DNA from: Brachybacterium nesterenkovii | GTDB lineage: Bacteria; Actinomycetota; Actinomycetes; Actinomycetales; Dermabacteraceae | Reading direction: 5' to 3' | Length of the DNA: 35,194 nt | NCBI RefSeq assembly: GCF_900163655.1 | Contig: NZ_FWFG01000011.1 | Coordinates: forward strand, 1-35,194 | In this document: positions 8,684-31,670 of the stretch, one piece after another | Layout: the number at the start of each line of letters is the position of its first letter | Numbering within the stretch: the first letter of the stretch is position 1 | Notes under the pieces: generated by a model | What the model was told of the DNA's origin: nothing | Seen by the model: only the letters and a program-made list of their open reading frames with translations | Databases searched by the model: none | Translations under genes and position numbers: made by a program

Positions 8684-9964
8684 TCAGGTGAGGTAGCGGT
8701 ACATCGGCCCGGCAGGGTCGATGCGCTCGATCTCCATCGACGAGGCGGCCATGCGCTCCAGCAGCGGCTCGAGGTTCTCGCGCGCGCCGAGCTCGAGGCC
8801 CACGAGCGCGGGCCCCGTCTCGCGGTTGTTGCGCTTGATGTAGTCGAACAGCACGATGTCGTCCTCCGGGCCCAGGACGTCGTGCAGGAAGCGGCGCAGC
8901 GCACCGGGCTCCTGGGGGAACGTGACGAGGAAGTAGTGCTTGAGGCCCTCGTGGACCAGGGAGCGCTCGACCACCTCGTTGTAGCGGGAGACGTCGTTGT
9001 TTCCGCCCGTGAGGACCACGAGGATCCCGCCCTCGCCCGGGTCGCGCACGAGCCCCGTCGCGACGGCCGCGGGGGCCAGGGCGCCCGCGGGCTCGGCGAT
9101 GATCCCGTCGACCTGGTACAGCGCGAGCATCTCGGTGCACACGGCGCCCTCGTCGACCACGCCCAGACGGGGGCGGTGCGCCAGCACCGTCGCGAGCGGG
9201 TGCTCGCCCACCCGCCGCACCGCGGCACCGTCGACGAAGCGCTCGAGATCCGCCAGGGTCACGGGCTCCCCGGCGCGGACCGCGGCCGCCATCGACGCCG
9301 CGCCCGCGGGCTCGACGCCCAGGACGTGGACCTCGGGGGCGCGCTCGGCGAGCCAGGCCATGCAGCCGCCCAGCAGGCCGCCGCCGCCCACGGGCAGCAC
9401 GACGCTCGAGATCTCGCGGCCGTTGTCCTCGCGCACCTGCTCCATCGCCTCGGCGATCACGGTGCCCTGACCGGCCATGACGACGGGGGAGTCGAACGGC
9501 GGTACGAGGGCGGCGCCGGTGCGCGCGGCGTCGGCGGCCGCCGCGGCCGCCGCGTCGTCGAAGGCGTCCCCGGTCATCACCAGCTCGACCCGCTCGCCCC
9601 CGAGGGCCACGATGCGCTCGCGCTTCTGCCGCGGCGTGGTGGTGGGGACGTAGATGCGGGCGTCGATGCCCAGGGCCCGGCAGGCATAGGCGACGCCCTG
9701 GGCGTGGTTGCCCGCGCTCGCCGCCACGACCCCGGCCGCGCGGCGCTCCTCGTCGAGGGAGTCGAGGAACAGGTAGGCGCCGCGCAGCTTGTACGAGCGC
9801 ACCGCCTGGAGGTCCTCGCGCTTGAGCCAGACGGGCGCGCCCGCGAGCTCGGACAGCCGCTCCGACAGCTCGACAGGGGTGCGGCGCACGAGGGCGCCGA
9901 GGCGCTCGCGGGCCCGGTCGACGTCATCGGCCGTGACGGGCGCGGGGACGGCGGGGGAGGTCAT
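8684..9964 (-). CDS. ilvA: threonine ammonia-lyase (biosynthetic type)
   Basis: This 426-residue PLP enzyme converts threonine to 2-oxobutyrate, the first step of isoleucine synthesis. The PLP lysine is Lys59 in [10 protein letters not shown]. The phosphate-binding glycine loop is [11 protein letters not shown], and the Asn-containing [10 protein letters not shown] motif is present. The C-terminal regulatory part (about residues 335-426) is a single ACT-like domain beginning [17 protein letters not shown], as in the short actinobacterial isoleucine-regulated form rather than the two-domain E. coli form. The ATG overlaps the ispF stop (ATGA), so it is translationally coupled as the last gene of the EIIB-ispF-ilvA unit. 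Pairing with ispF instead of other ilv genes is unusual. Confidence 0.92.
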
Positions 9965-10494
9965 GCGGGGTCCTCTCCGGATGCGGCGGGGGCGGTGGCG
10001 GCGGGGACGATCACGACGGTGGCGATCGCGGCGATCCCCTCGCCGCGCCCGGTCAGCCCCAGGCCGTCGGTGGTGGTCCCCGACAGGCCCACGGGCGCGC
10101 CGAGGGCCTCGGCGAGGACGGCCTGGGCCTCGGCGCGGCGGGCGGACAGGCGTGGCCGGTTCCCGATCACCTGGATGGCCGCGCTGCCGATCTCGAAGCC
10201 GGCCGCGCGGACCAGGCGGGCGGCCTCGGCCAGCAGCGCGCACCCGGCAGCGCCCGCCCATTCGGGGCGCGAGGTGCCGAAGTGGGCGCCGAGGTCGCCG
10301 ATGCCGGCGGCCGAGAACAGGGCGTCGCAGGCGGCGTGGCAGGCGACGTCGGCATCGGAGTGCCCCTCGAGCGCGCGCTCGCCGGGCCAGGCGAGCCCGG
10401 CGATCCACAGGGTCCGCTCGGAGTCCTCGGGCGCGAAGGCGTGGACGTCGGTGCCGATGCCCACCCGCGGGACCGGGAGGGCCGCGGGGGTCAC
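9961..10494 (-). CDS. ispF: 2-C-methyl-D-erythritol 2,4-cyclodiphosphate synthase
   Basis: The protein has 177 residues and is the fifth-step enzyme of the MEP isoprenoid pathway. It cyclises CDP-methylerythritol 2-phosphate and releases CMP. The zinc ligands lie in GTDVHAF (Asp16, His18) and in [17 protein letters not shown] and the closing [15 protein letters not shown] motif are present (Asp where Glu is more common). The GTG start at 10494 overlaps the stop of the EIIB gene (GTGA), and its own stop overlaps the ilvA ATG. In many actinobacteria ispF directly follows ispD. Here it is separated from the carD-linked ispD-like gene by about 1.6 kb containing two forward genes and EIIB. Confidence 0.93.
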
Positions 10495-10784
10495 TGGGCG
10501 TTCTCCAGCTGGTCGAGCAGGCGGTCGATGTCGTCGTACGTGACACCGGGGGTGGTGTGCAGCAGCACCGGCATGCCGGAGACGACGGGGATGCCGAGCG
10601 CCGGCGGGATCGAGACGGTCGAGACGACCAGGTCGGCGCGGAAGTCGGGGGAGAGCAGATCCATCACGGTGGCCTGGACGACGCGCACGGGTCCGGGGCG
10701 GTCCTGCACGTGCTCGCGGACCCGCTCGGCGATGACCGCGGAGGTGGCGACGCCGGCGCCGCACACGATGGCGATAGTGGGCAT
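10491..10784 (-). CDS. orphan PTS EIIB component, galactitol/lactose-cellobiose-like
   Basis: The protein has 97 residues. The phosphocysteine loop is at the N-terminus ([17 protein letters not shown], Cys8), as in the GatB-like EIIB fold, and residues 35-95 make the rest of a Rossmann-like domain. EIIB passes phosphate from EIIA to the sugar during EIIC transport, but no EIIA or EIIC is present in the window. AGGAGG precedes the ATG, which fixes the start. It is the first gene of a coupled unit with ispF and ilvA. A regulatory or signalling role for a lone EIIB, or service to an EIIC elsewhere, are both possible. Confidence 0.8.
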
Positions 10785-10909
10785 CAGGGCCTCCTGGGCG
10801 CGATGGGGTGTGATGTGGACGACGGCTGATTCTCGCACGGGGGGCCGGGAGCGGCCACCGCGGGGAGGGAGCGAGGGCTGCCGGGGCGGCGGCGGGGGAG
10901 ACGGGTCGT

Positions 10910-10921: not shown

Positions 10922-11683
10922 GTGAGCACACCCCGTGGACCCCGTGCGCGCCGCGCCCGAGCGGGCGGCGCGGCCGGTGTCGTGCTCGCGGGCGGGACCG
11001 GCTCGCGCCTGGGCGCCGAGATCAACAAGGCCTTCCTCCCGCTCGCCGGGCGCGCGATCGCCGGCTGGAGCCTGGCCACCATGGCATCGGTGGAGGGCAT
11101 CGGGCCGCTCGTGTTCGTCGTGCGCCCCGAGGACCGCGCCCATGCCGAGGCCGTCGTCGAGCGCGGACTGCGCCGACGGGTCGAGGTCATCTCGGGCGGC
11201 GCGACGCGCCAGGAGTCCGAGCTGATGGCGCTGCGGCGCCTGGCCGACAGGATTGACGCCGGCACCGTGCACACGGTGCTGATCCACGATGCGGCGCGCC
11301 CGCTCGTCTCCCACGGTCTGATCGCCGCCGTGCTGCACGCCGCGATGGAGTCCGGGGGCGCGGTCCCCGCGATCCCCGTCCACGACGTCGCCGTCGCGGA
11401 TGCCGACGGCTTCCTCGCCCCGACCGCCGTCGACGCGGACGAGCTCCTGCGCGTTCAGACCCCGCAGGGCTTCCGGGCCGACGCGATCCTCGACGCCTAC
11501 GAGGCCGCCGCGCGCGACGCCTTCGTGGGCACCGATACGCAGTCGTGCGCCGAGCAGTACACGGACATCGCGACGACGTGGGTGCGCGGCGAGGAGACCA
11601 ACTTCAAGATCACCTACGCGCAGGACCTGCTGCTGGCCCAGGACGTGGTGGCCGCCGAGCGCCTCTCGCCCCGGTGGGGCTGA
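10922..11683 (+). CDS. ispD: IspD/TarI-family cytidylyltransferase with intact CTP site
   Basis: The protein has 253 residues. IspD joins CTP and methylerythritol 4-phosphate to give CDP-methylerythritol. The nucleotide loop is intact (VVLAGGTGSRLGAEINKAF, Arg29 and Lys36), as are GGATRQES, the metal/catalytic Asp in LIHDAARP (Asp123), RVQTPQGF, and the late lysine in NFKIT (Lys229). However, the arm that carries Thr140 and Arg157 in E. coli IspD reads PVHDVAVADAD and TAVDADELL here: the equivalents are Val156 and Ala172. It may therefore use a different acceptor (TarI-like ribitol phosphate) or depend on a partner. It is a forward-strand insertion into the carD-ispD-ispF block. Symbol given by family, not by proven function. 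Confidence 0.75.
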   Translation: MSTPRGPRARRARAGGAAGVVLAGGTGSRLGAEINKAFLPLAGRAIAGWSLATMASVEGIGPLVFVVRPEDRAHAEAVVERGLRRRVEVISGGATRQESELMALRRLADRIDAGTVHTVLIHDAARPLVSHGLIAAVLHAAMESGGAVPAIPVHDVAVADADGFLAPTAVDADELLRVQTPQGFRADAILDAYEAAARDAFVGTDTQSCAEQYTDIATTWVRGEETNFKITYAQDLLLAQDVVAAERLSPRWG

Positions 11684-11694
11684 GCGGCGCACGA

Positions 11695-11700
11695 TAGTGT
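11695..11700 (+). promoter_or_regulatory. candidate -10 box TAGTGT upstream of zinc-ribbon gene
   Basis: TAGTGT (TAnnnT form) lies 12 bp after the ispD stop. A transcript starting about 7 nt on would begin with the 11706-11738 hairpin and have a leader of about 70 nt. Confidence 0.3.
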
Positions 11701-11705
11701 GGGAG

Positions 11706-11738
11706 ACCCCGGTCACGTCCCGGGGGCGGGACCGGGGT
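11706..11738 (+). terminator. hairpin after the ispD-family gene
   Basis: Nine-base arms accccggtc (11706-11714) and gaccggggt (11730-11738) pair around a 15-nt loop. It may end the ispD transcript or form the 5' structure of the next mRNA. There is no T-run. Confidence 0.4.
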
Positions 11739-11776
11739 GCGGCCCCAGGGAGTGCGGACGGACGGGGGTGTCGGCG

Positions 11777-12094
11777 ATGGCGGTCCAGGAGAGCAACCTG
11801 CGGTGCACCGTGTGCGATCGGGAGGCCGAGCACGAGGTCGTGTACGCGGGCCGCTTCGTCACCCAGATCGTGTGCACCCATTGCGGTGCCGTGACCCGGC
11901 TGGACGTGAGCGAGGACTACCTGCCGGACCTGCGCGACCGCGTGGCGACCAAGCCGCGGCGCCTGGCGTCCGTGTTCCGCGACCATCCGCTGTCCTCGAC
12001 GACGAGCCTGCCCGGGCGGATGCTGTCCAAGCCCCTGCGCATGGCCGAGGAGGTGCTCACCGTGCACCGCAACCGCCGTCGCGGCGAGCGCTAG
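11777..12094 (+). CDS. small zinc-ribbon protein of unknown function
   Basis: The protein has 105 residues. It opens with a likely zinc ribbon: CTVC and, about 20 residues later, CTHCG, with the linker EAEHEVVYAGRFVTQIV. The rest is basic (KPRRLASVFRDHPL, ending VHRNRRRGER) and may be helical. The ATG at 11777 is chosen because homology-like content begins there; a GTG three codons upstream is possible. It lies between the two ispD-family genes on the strand opposite to the carD unit, and it may have entered together with the forward ispD. Role unknown; a nucleic-acid-binding or metal-binding adaptor is a guess. Confidence 0.65.
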   Translation: MAVQESNLRCTVCDREAEHEVVYAGRFVTQIVCTHCGAVTRLDVSEDYLPDLRDRVATKPRRLASVFRDHPLSSTTSLPGRMLSKPLRMAEEVLTVHRNRRRGER

Positions 12095-12139
12095 CCACCG
12101 CGCCGGGCCGGGCGTCCCGACAGATCAGGCGTCGACAGT

Positions 12140-12847
12140 TCAGGCTCCGCGGCGGGGCGCGGGCGAGGTGTCCCGCGCGAGGCCCAGGGCGATCTGCGCC
12201 TGCCAGAGCCCCAGGCGGTCGAGGACGGGCGCTCCCTGGTGGCTTCCGTGGACGACCCGCACGGCCGCGCCGAGGTGCAGGGCGGCGCGGATCTCGTCAT
12301 CGGGCAGGGTCGGGTCCGTCGCCTGCGCCGCGAGGATCTCCTCGAGCAGTCCCCGCCGCAGCGCGCGCGGGCACTGCAGGGTCCTCAGCGCGGAACGGTC
12401 AACGTTGCGCAGCCCGTGCTCGCCGCGCCGCTTGACCGAGTCGGTCACGTCGATCCCGGGGACCGCCGCGTCCGTCTCCGCGCCGTCCAGCGCATCGAGA
12501 ACCGCCCGGACCGTGGCGGGCGGGGTCAGGGCGCGCTCGGCCTCGTGCACGAGGACGATCTGATCGGCGGGCCCGGGGCCGAGATGCTCGAGAGCCTGCG
12601 CCAGGATGCGCAACCGGGGGCCGCCGTCCGCCGCGAGGGCGCGCGCGCGGCCGCCCAGCTCGCGAGACACCTCCCGGAGCGCTCCCGGGGACGTCACGAC
12701 GAGCGGCCCGTGTCCGGTCGCCTGCTCGAGCGGGCCGAGCAGGCGGCGCAGCAGGGTGGGCCCGCCGAGCGGCAGGAGCGCTGGCACGTCCTCGTCGTCC
12801 GCGCGCGGGAGCGCGAGGACGACGGGCAGGATCGGGGGAGCGGCCAC
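12140..12847 (-). CDS. degenerate IspD-like protein (carD-linked)
   Basis: The protein has about 235 residues. The order of IspD segments is recognisable: VVLALPRADDEDVPALLPL for the nucleotide loop, IVLVHEAERALTPP for the VHDAARP segment, DVTDSVKRR and NVDRSALRTLQCP for the arm, and VRVVHGSHQG for the last strand. The nucleotide-binding glycines, Arg20 and Lys27 are gone, Asp106 is Glu102, and Lys213 is lost. The arm residues remain (Ser137 for Thr140, Arg151 for Arg157), as does Arg109 (Arg105). The GTG at 12847, 27 nt after the carD stop, is the best start; it has no ribosome-binding site, so coupling to carD is likely. It sits where ispD normally follows carD, so it is probably the original ispD turned non-catalytic partner, or a relic. 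Confidence 0.65.
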   Translation of the reverse strand: MAAPPILPVVLALPRADDEDVPALLPLGGPTLLRRLLGPLEQATGHGPLVVTSPGALREVSRELGGRARALAADGGPRLRILAQALEHLGPGPADQIVLVHEAERALTPPATVRAVLDALDGAETDAAVPGIDVTDSVKRRGEHGLRNVDRSALRTLQCPRALRRGLLEEILAAQATDPTLPDDEIRAALHLGAAVRVVHGSHQGAPVLDRLGLWQAQIALGLARDTSPAPRRGA

Positions 12848-12873: not shown

Positions 12874-13356
12874 TCAGGAGGCGAGGACCTCGTCGAGGAT
12901 CGACTCGGCGTGCGTCTCGTCGGTCTTCTCCGCGAGCGCGAGCTCGGAGACGAGGATCTGCCGGGCCTTGGAGAGCATGCGCTTCTCGCCCGCGGACAGC
13001 CCGCGGTCCTTGTCGCGGCGCCACAGGTCGCGCACGACCTCGGCGACCTTCTTCACGTCGCCCGAGGCCAGCTTCTCGACATTCGCCTTGTAGCGGCGGG
13101 ACCAGTTGGTGGGCTCCTCCGTGTACGGCTGGCGCAGGACCTCGAAGACCTCGTCGAGGCCCTCCTTGTCCACGACGTCGCGGACGCCGACGAGATCGAC
13201 GTTGTCGGCCGGCACCTCGATCGTGAGGTCGCCCTGGGCGACCTTGAGCTTGAGGTAGGTGCGCTCCTCGCCCTTGATGGTGCGGGTCTTCACCTCTTCG
13301 ATGAGCGCGGCACCGTGGTGCGGGTAGACAACGGTCTCGCCGACGGCAAAAGTCAT
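12874..13356 (-). CDS. carD: CarD family RNA polymerase-binding regulator
   Basis: The protein has 160 residues. CarD binds the RNA polymerase beta subunit and stabilises open complexes, notably at rRNA promoters. The N-terminal RNAP-interaction Tudor-like domain begins [20 protein letters not shown] and includes [17 protein letters not shown]. The C-terminal helical DNA-binding domain holds [17 protein letters not shown] and [19 protein letters not shown], with the tryptophan that wedges the promoter (WRRD region). The ATG at 13356 is preceded by AAAGGGG at 13366-13372 (reverse strand), which fixes the start over an upstream in-frame ATG. It is divergent from an LpqE-like lipoprotein, as in mycobacteria. 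Confidence 0.93.
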
Positions 13357-13382
13357 GTGACTGGGCCCCTTTCGTCGGATCG

Positions 13383-13388
13383 AGTCTA
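13383..13388 (-). promoter_or_regulatory. candidate -10 box TAGACT for carD
   Basis: On the reverse strand TAGACT lies about 27 nt before the carD ATG, which leaves a short leader containing the AAAGGGG ribosome-binding site. Confidence 0.4.
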
Positions 13389-13402
13389 GCATCGCAGGGT
13401 TG

Positions 13403-31012: not shown

Positions 31013-31273
31013 TCACCTCTCATAGTGGTACCGGCAGCTGGCGATGCGGATCTCGTCCTCGACGATGGCGTATACGAGCCGATGCTCGTCGGTGATCCGG
31101 CGCGACCAGTACCCCGCCAGGCCGTGCTTGAGGGCCTCGGGCTTGCCCAGCCCCTCGTTGCCGTGGCGTCCCACGTCGCGGATCAGCAGGTTGATGCGCT
31201 TCAGCGTCCGACGGTCCTGAGCCTGCCACCAGAGATAGTCCTCCCAGGCGCTCTCGTCCCAGACGATGAGCAC
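31013..31273 (-). CDS. yoeB: YoeB/Txe family ribosome-dependent mRNA interferase toxin
   Basis: The protein has 86 residues. The family catalytic residues fall at the same numbers as in E. coli YoeB: Glu46 (KPEALK), Arg65 (DEHRLVY), His83 and Tyr84 (CRYHYER). WEDYLWWQAQDRRTLKRIN is the usual N-terminal helix. It would cleave mRNA at the ribosomal A site when free of antitoxin. The GTG start lies 5 nt after the yefM stop, so it is coupled to it. It looks fully functional. TA pairs are often mobile; a tRNA-Gly gene lies 0.4 kb away. Confidence 0.92.
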   Translation of the reverse strand: MLIVWDESAWEDYLWWQAQDRRTLKRINLLIRDVGRHGNEGLGKPEALKHGLAGYWSRRITDEHRLVYAIVEDEIRIASCRYHYER

Positions 31274-31278
31274 GGCGG

Positions 31279-31533
31279 TCAGTCCTCGATGAGGTCGTGG
31301 CGGTCTCCGTGTCCCGCGTCGAGGCGCTCGATGGAGTCCAGGAGGCGACGGGCATTGGCCGGCGAGCGCAGGAGGTAGGACGTCTCGCGGAGCGCCTCGT
31401 ACTCGGTGAGTGAGACGATGACGACGGGGTCGTGCCCCGCACGCGTGATGACGGCTTCTTCACGGTCGTTGACCACGTCGTCGAGCACCTGCGCGTAGTT
31501 GGCGCGGGACTCGGTGTAGCTGAATGTCTTCAC
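31279..31533 (-). CDS. yefM: YefM family antitoxin
   Basis: The protein has 84 residues. The DNA-binding N-terminal domain reads KTFSYTESRANYAQVLDDVV, followed by ITRAGHDPVVIVSLTEYEAL, and the C-terminal toxin-binding part is RSPANARRLLDSIERLD. YefM neutralises YoeB and, with it, represses its own promoter. The GTG at 31533 is chosen because GGGGGTG precedes it and the family starts there; an upstream in-frame extension would run across the operator. Confidence 0.9.
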   Translation of the reverse strand: MKTFSYTESRANYAQVLDDVVNDREEAVITRAGHDPVVIVSLTEYEALRETSYLLRSPANARRLLDSIERLDAGHGDRHDLIED

Positions 31534-31543
31534 GGCACACCCC

Positions 31544-31583
31544 CTGTACGGATAACTGTACGCGGCGGGGAAGCGGTGCTCAA
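31544..31583 (-). promoter_or_regulatory. yefM-yoeB promoter with paired operator
   Basis: On the reverse strand TTGAGC (31583-31578), 17 nt and TACAGT (31560-31555) form a -35/-10 pair about 15 nt before the predicted start of a short leader. Two CTGTACG repeats (31544-31550 and 31556-31562) overlap the -10 and the start region; their GTAC centres are 12 bp apart. The E. coli yefM-yoeB operator is described as two TGTACA-core palindromes at that spacing. Confidence 0.65.
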
Positions 31584-31670
31584 GGCGGCGCTCATGGGTG
31601 CGCATCGTCGCGCCATGCAACACGAATCGCGCCACCGTTCGTGAACGATGACGCGACTCATGACAATCCG

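Follow-up and report, generated by a model that had tools for sequence, protein, structure and literature searches.

The two IspD-family genes and their neighbors

The window, by which we mean the whole 35,194-nucleotide stretch of Brachybacterium nesterenkovii DNA that was analyzed, carries two genes of the IspD family, and both open reading frames lie where the initial annotation had placed them. The forward gene, on the plus strand, encodes what is proposed below to be a cleft subunit, and the carD-linked gene, on the minus strand, encodes its candidate partner, the arm subunit. The two genes are convergent, with a gene for a small zinc-ribbon-like protein in between. The carD-linked gene begins 26 bp after carD on the shared strand, and ispF, which had already been reported nearby, flanks the forward gene at its opposite end and is encoded by the minus strand. 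The features are as follows.

About 9961 to 10482, minus strand: ispF, of the MEP pathway (PF02542)
10491 to 10787, minus strand: PTS galactitol IIB-like ORF, between ispF and the forward gene (NF007643, below its cut-off)
10922 to 11683, plus strand: forward IspD gene, putative cleft subunit (253 amino acids, GTG start; PF01128, 161.9 bits)
10976 to 11029, plus strand: nucleotide loop of the cleft subunit, approximately residues 19 to 36, with R29 and K36 (E. coli R20 and K27)
11363 to 11446, plus strand: decayed beta-arm of the cleft subunit, residues 148 to 175 (low conservation; T140 in 0 of 112 rows)
11606 to 11608, plus strand: K229 of the cleft subunit (E. coli K213; 112 of 112 rows)
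11777 to 12094, plus strand: gene for a small zinc-ribbon-like protein, immediately following the cleft gene
12140 to 12847, minus strand: carD-linked degenerate IspD gene, putative arm subunit (235 amino acids, GTG start)
12380 to 12466, minus strand: conserved beta-arm of the arm subunit, residues 128 to 156, with TDSVK and VDR
12874 to 13392, minus strand: carD, immediately upstream of the gene for the arm subunit (PF21095 and PF02559)

Elsewhere in the window, a YoeB-like toxin and a Phd/YefM antitoxin are paired at 31013 to 31635 (minus strand).

The textbook view of IspD is that of a homodimer, and the enzyme is a target for drugs and herbicides. In the structure of the E. coli enzyme, Thr140 and Arg157 reportedly come from the opposite subunit. 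The beta-arm has been described as hooking the monomers together, with the active site at their interface (PMC11796317); the arm reportedly contains the MEP site, and MEP seems to bond Arg157 and Lys213 (PMC11770629). Thr140 is described as bonding the erythritol moiety, and in Francisella tularensis IspD, exchange of the equivalent residue for Asp or Glu is stated to cost 75% or all of the activity (PMC3111433). In the Bacillus subtilis enzyme, CTP binding is ascribed to Arg15, Lys22, and Lys209 (PMC5099578).

Both proteins of the window are members of Pfam family IspD (PF01128; 161.9 bits for the forward protein and 61.8 bits for the carD-linked protein; cut-off, 27), and with an IspD fold and scores above the PF01128 gathering threshold the pair falls within the superfamily; an IspD-like fold is predicted for the partner as well. 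Neither protein, however, passed the cut-off of the TIGR00453 IspD equivalog model (169.9 and 69.0 bits, respectively, versus 181.3). The residues that TIGR00453-type proteins use at the CTP site (R20, K27, D106, and K213) are present in the forward chain and not in the carD-linked chain, whereas the arm residues T140 and R157 are found in the carD-linked chain (as S137 and R151) and not in the forward chain. A scripted check located R29, K36, D123, R126, V156, A172, T180, and K229 in the forward protein and E102, R105, D136, S137, K139, D150, and R151 in the carD-linked protein, confirming the residues that had been named by eye; S137, K139, and R151 correspond to E. coli T140, K142, and R157. 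The forward protein thus has an intact CTP site without equivalents of Thr140 and Arg157, and the carD-linked protein retains the beta-arm but has lost the CTP loop, K27, and K213.

Complementary residue states, selection, and pathway content

Residue states were counted in an alignment anchored to E. coli IspD that held 29 canonical, 112 forward-type, and 62 partner rows. GlmU/MobA-like matches, the row for the E. coli locus, the fusion frame from genome G170, and canonical-locus matches below the score limits were excluded from these counts, and 11 other IspD-like rows were tallied separately. Canonical IspDs carried R20, K27, K213, T140, and R157 in 29 of 29 rows and K142 in 18. Cleft subunits had both R20 and K27 in all 100 rows with an intact N terminus (the other 12 lack it) and had K213 and T165 in 112 of 112; T140 was found in none and K142 in only 2. 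R157 was scored in 10 of the 112 rows, never together with T140 and within a badly aligned, hypervariable arm. Partners carried S/T140, K142, and R157 in 61 of 62 rows, at least 4 of which are repeats of one gene seen via another locus; the single exception (L259) stems from faulty trimming, its protein having VTDTVKR and DRD. R20 occurred in 3 of the 62 partner rows, and K27 and K213 in none, while D136, K139, D150, and R151 were invariant in 44 partner rows that include those of Amycolatopsis. The carD-linked protein had also been noted to lack Asp106. This is correct here, where the residue is Glu102, but it does not extend to partners in general: Asp106 is retained in 55 of 62 rows, and the Glu of the Brachybacterium partner is therefore a local detail.

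The arms of the two proteins also differ in how well they are conserved. Over 25 Brachybacterium rows of each protein, the mean frequency of the commonest residue was 0.60 in the forward protein arm versus 0.91 in the rest of the protein, and 0.82 in the partner arm versus 0.69 in the rest (the first 20 columns being excluded from the rest). The complementary losses are therefore not due to chance, and this mirror image is expected of a composite site but not of a relic.

The relic reading, raised in the initial annotation, takes the forward gene for a complete IspD that has replaced an old, decaying carD-linked copy. It draws on the position of the carD-linked gene, which is that of the canonical ispD in other families, on the placement of the forward clade among non-actinobacterial IspDs (see below), and on rates of evolution in Brachybacterium, where the carD-linked gene changes faster (median dN/dS by Nei-Gojobori, 0.46 over 298 pairs, maximum 0.86) than the forward gene (median 0.23 over 300 pairs, maximum 0.48). 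Yet the carD-linked gene is open in 25 of 25 Brachybacterium rows with dN/dS below 1, indicating purifying selection, and the supposed replacement lacks T140 in all 112 rows. In addition, the partner persists in several families with its arm retained and is in some fused to the forward protein, and both genes are missing from species that have only the mevalonate (MVA) pathway. The relic reading is thereby largely refuted, and we consider it very improbable.

A third canonical ispD elsewhere in the genome was one of the observations named beforehand as counting against a split enzyme. A PF01128 search of the complete genome of the window (99.98% complete, 119 contigs) returned three matches, namely, the forward protein, the carD-linked protein, and one that was rejected as a canonical IspD: it covers only profile positions 3 to 129 within a long frame and, judging by a motif, is presumably GlmU. 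No third canonical ispD was thus found in this genome. Other IspD-like genes of Brachybacterium were likewise rejected as true IspDs, as they occur in genomes without dxr.

Gene content was then compared across 38 Brachybacterium genomes, of which 25 carry ispF, 26 carry dxr, and 16 carry HMG-CoA reductase. The forward gene was present in 25 of 25 ispF-positive genomes, and the carD-linked gene in 24; none was found in the 25th (G005, 84% complete), where the contig stops before the locus. In the incomplete genome G006, dxr is present and the carD-linked gene lies close to the end of a contig. Twelve genomes lack both ispF and dxr, and all 12 have HMG-CoA reductase. In these MVA-only genomes the forward gene was found in none of the 12 (search at an E value of 1e-40 for ten; a separate search for G003 and G023). 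The partner was judged by reading the carD locus in the 11 where this was possible (all but G042, which gave no carD match); in each, carD adjoins ilvA, and the partner, the zinc-ribbon-like gene, the forward gene, and ispF are missing. Across the genus, the two genes are therefore present and absent together with the MEP pathway. Four genomes (G012, G017, G021, and G050) have dxr/ispF as well as HMG-CoA reductase and are possible intermediates of a pathway switch; mixed use of the MEP and mevalonate pathways also appears in a published account of Brachybacterium (PMC13001223). On an rpoB tree (1.8 kb, 34 of the 38 genomes), the MEP or MVA-only label requires six changes, of which branches with good support force at least four. 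We take all six for losses, a direction that goes beyond what the rpoB tree proves. Because the two genes are neighbors in Brachybacterium, one deletion can remove both; this weakness is removed by the recurrence of the pattern beyond the genus, also where the genes are unlinked.

The same data bear on a TarI-like change of substrate, in which the forward protein would make CDP-ribitol or a similar product and isoprenoids would be supplied from elsewhere. Four rows taken for TarI-like from their residues (L237, L243, L262, and L263) also lack T140 and R157, and the ORF adjoining the forward gene resembles PTS galactitol IIB (NF007643, 36 bits, under the cut-off of 95). Against this, K213 and T165 are universal in forward rows, where the four TarI-like rows have H and M, and the forward protein scored 92 bits with the NCBI model for D-ribitol-5-phosphate cytidylyltransferase (NF001183; cut-off, 166), with which the carD-linked protein gave no match up to an E value of 1. 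The forward gene moreover tracks dxr and ispF in the genus, while other IspD-like genes do occur in MVA-only genomes (two inspected, L031 and L033). All 11 MVA-only carD loci retain the PTS gene, which for this reason was also rejected as a component of the system. A TarI-like change is, in our estimate, the least probable of the readings, and both competitors listed in the initial annotation fit much worse than a split heterodimer.

Recurrence in other lineages and natural fusions

The complementary pattern was also found in other Dermabacteraceae, in Nanopelagicales-like genomes, in Amycolatopsis, and in three more families. A scan of species genomes with the forward-protein alignment retained 80 of 568 loci as encoding a relative. 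Fifteen of these, from Nanopelagicales-like genomes (a grouping made here that includes Planktophila and Nanopelagicaceae labels, some of them apparently wrong), encode a forward protein and, close to it, another IspD-like protein. The latter lacks Arg20 and Lys27, has Arg for Lys213 (a gap in one row), and carries Glu-Thr-x-Lys and Arg157 in 15 of 15. On the 1.43-Mb chromosome OX376642.1 (G412), the only PF01128 matches were a cleft subunit, an arm subunit, and a GlmU-like protein.

No partner was detected in the flanks of 32 Amycolatopsis loci and one Actinophytocola locus that encode the forward protein. All five Amycolatopsis genomes searched whole nevertheless contained both kinds, with the genes far apart; in G408 they are separated by about 7 Mb in coordinates on a 10.7-Mb chromosome. 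The Amycolatopsis partner lies between carD and ispF, lacks the loop, Lys27, and Lys213, and has Asp-Thr-x-Lys and Arg157; that of G407 retains Arg at position 20. In G407, G409, and G411, the PF01128-type matches comprised the forward protein, the partner, and a GlmU-like protein only. As these distant genes are complementary all the same, the pattern is independent of linkage.

An order-wide search (E value of 1e-40), in which the query was the forward protein of another family, identified 37 of 396 genomes, in families f1, f6, f15, and f18. Twenty-six genomes were examined whole: 24 contained the forward protein, and two (G201 and G388) contained neither protein. Since partner rows were gathered by similarity to IspD or partner profiles, a partner without the arm could be overlooked; this concern is countered by the genomes searched whole, as each of the 24 with a forward protein gave an arm-bearing partner. 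An extra canonical-looking IspD with T140 and R157 accompanies the pair at L201 (G410) and L227 (G083). In genus g44, the partner measures approximately 140 to 160 residues (start assigned by eye) and still reads VRPVTDTLKRV...GTADRE; four arm-subunit ORFs of this genus (L236, L238, L242, and L261) comprise little beyond the arm motif and could serve as naturally occurring minimal partners in structural studies. The profiles did not pick up the short partners of G164, G204, and G138, which were read by eye only.

Both halves also occur within one protein. In G170, a single open frame (L248:828-2258) starts with GTG after GGAGG and encodes the partner half first. A search of 5.8 billion proteins, in which the best 8,000 candidates were scored, gave two further full-length fusions among the 83 matches listed: P0007 from Tersicoccus sp. 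MR15.9 (487 amino acids, 61% identical) and the metagenomic P0020 (459 amino acids, 39% identical). By eye, all three fusions carry T140 and R157 but no loop in their first half, with the reverse in their second; the K142 position is Thr in P0007 and the G170 fusion. P0020 and P0007 scored 210.0 and 184.6 bits with TIGR00453, both above the cut-off of 181.3.

The two proteins could also work together in a different manner, with the carD-linked protein activating the forward enzyme allosterically, like a prozyme, donating no residues, and the forward protein binding MEP differently. Trypanosomatid enzymes are described as operating in this way (PMC5201418, PMC3663545), and heterodimerization would be expected here too. 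An AlphaFold2 model of P0020 does not reveal the docking of the two halves, its pTM being only 0.72 and its arm-subunit half mostly poorly predicted except around the arm. However, the conserved stretch of the partner consists of the MEP-binding positions D/E139, S/T140, K142, and R157, even in very short partners. A pure activator needs no MEP-site residues, and the conservation of the arm therefore counts against this explanation, which we regard as unlikely.

A candidate heterodimeric IspD and its relation to known systems

We consider it likely, judging from sequence, that the forward and carD-linked proteins are two subunits of one heterodimeric IspD with a single composite active site. 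The proposal of a split enzyme in the initial annotation has gained support from the lack of a third IspD in the window's genome, selection on the partner, co-occurrence with the MEP pathway, recurrence without linkage, and the fusions, all of which are consistent with it. In such an enzyme, the forward protein would supply the cleft, holding CTP and magnesium through the loop (Arg20/Lys27), Asp106, and Lys213, while the beta-arm of the carD-linked protein would hook over the forward protein and set Ser/Thr140 and Arg157 against MEP. Because the dimer would consist of unlike subunits with complementary losses, it would contain one working composite site; the second site, formed by the cleft of the arm subunit and the arm of the cleft subunit, would be dead, having decayed on both sides. 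We infer dimerization, the action of Thr140 and Arg157 in trans, and catalysis of MEP and CTP to CDP-ME.

In a 94-row tree, the forward proteins form one clade (37 rows, SH-aLRT of 100) that is apart from the actinobacterial carD-linked IspDs and sits among IspDs of other, non-actinobacterial bacteria; the non-actinobacterial rows, E. coli aside, came from a search with the forward protein, which favors forward-like rows. All partners fall to the same side of one branch (SH-aLRT of 84), next to actinobacterial canonical IspDs, and the single branch joining them may reflect long-branch attraction. This arrangement suggests that a foreign cleft subunit joined a native IspD, whose own cleft was then lost, although the origin of both subunits is uncertain because of the long branches and the choice of outside rows. 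Overall, we think it probable that an incoming cleft subunit relies on the arm that the native carD-linked IspD provides, so that homologues of different origin share an active site. The partner would have lost its catalytic cleft, in some lineages to the point of being nearly an arm alone, and the system would span several actinobacterial families, with its genes adjacent, megabases apart, or fused, having passed as ordinary IspD in annotation.

Canonical IspD (E. coli YgbP; TIGR00453/PF01128) resembles this candidate system in fold, in the cleft residues of one subunit, and in the arm residues of the other, and canonical ispD is adjacent to carD, as is the arm subunit gene here. The split system differs in having two unlike subunits with complementary losses, neither of which alone reaches the TIGR00453 cut-off, whereas two fusions do. 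TarI shares the IspD fold, and TarI-like rows likewise lack equivalents of Thr140 and Arg157, but they have His for Lys213, and no dependent partner of TarI is known. Fusions of the IspDF type contain an IspD domain, as do the split-IspD fusions; the latter, however, join two IspD homologues, arm subunit and then cleft subunit, and not IspD with IspF. No description of a split or heterodimeric IspD was found among the titles and abstract openings listed by the literature searches, which covered few subscription journals.

On sequence criteria, the pair fits the pattern of a pseudoenzyme-activated heteromer, in which a homologue under selection but without catalytic residues stands beside an impaired one; for complex formation, the fusions are an indirect pointer. 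Trypanosomatid AdoMetDC/prozyme and deoxyhypusine synthase c/p are essential enzymes that likewise combine an impaired catalytic subunit with a dead paralogue, but published accounts cast the dead partner as an activator (PMC5201418, PMC3663545), whereas the IspD partner is proposed to donate substrate-binding residues; the subunits of split IspD may also differ in origin. The working of the IspD pair thus appears to resemble that of known pseudoenzyme-dependent heteromers, with the sharing of substrate-binding residues added.

If this interpretation is correct, the system offers a clear example from nature of two decaying homologues that divide an active site between them, one of them cut down in some lineages to a donor arm. 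It would allow a direct test of how obligate heteromers evolve, as the state exists in the form of neighboring genes, distant genes, and fusions, and other families of the same order still have homodimer-type IspDs. Many actinobacteria seemingly build IspD, an essential enzyme of the isoprenoid pathway, from two such damaged-looking copies. Annotation is affected too: partner proteins of Brachybacterium and Amycolatopsis are entered as plain IspD or IspD/TarI family, and such proteins probably cannot work alone.

The zinc-ribbon-like protein, which has two CxxC motifs, matched nothing in NCBIfam at 0.01 or in Pfam at 0.001. It was found in 23 of the 396 genomes of the order, all 23 being among the 37 with the cleft gene. 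Its gene lies beside the forward gene even where the partner is elsewhere (G096 and G323), and does so also in seven Nanopelagicales-like loci (L136 to L141 and L146) and in Actinophytocola (L102). The protein is possibly a third, optional component with an accessory role.
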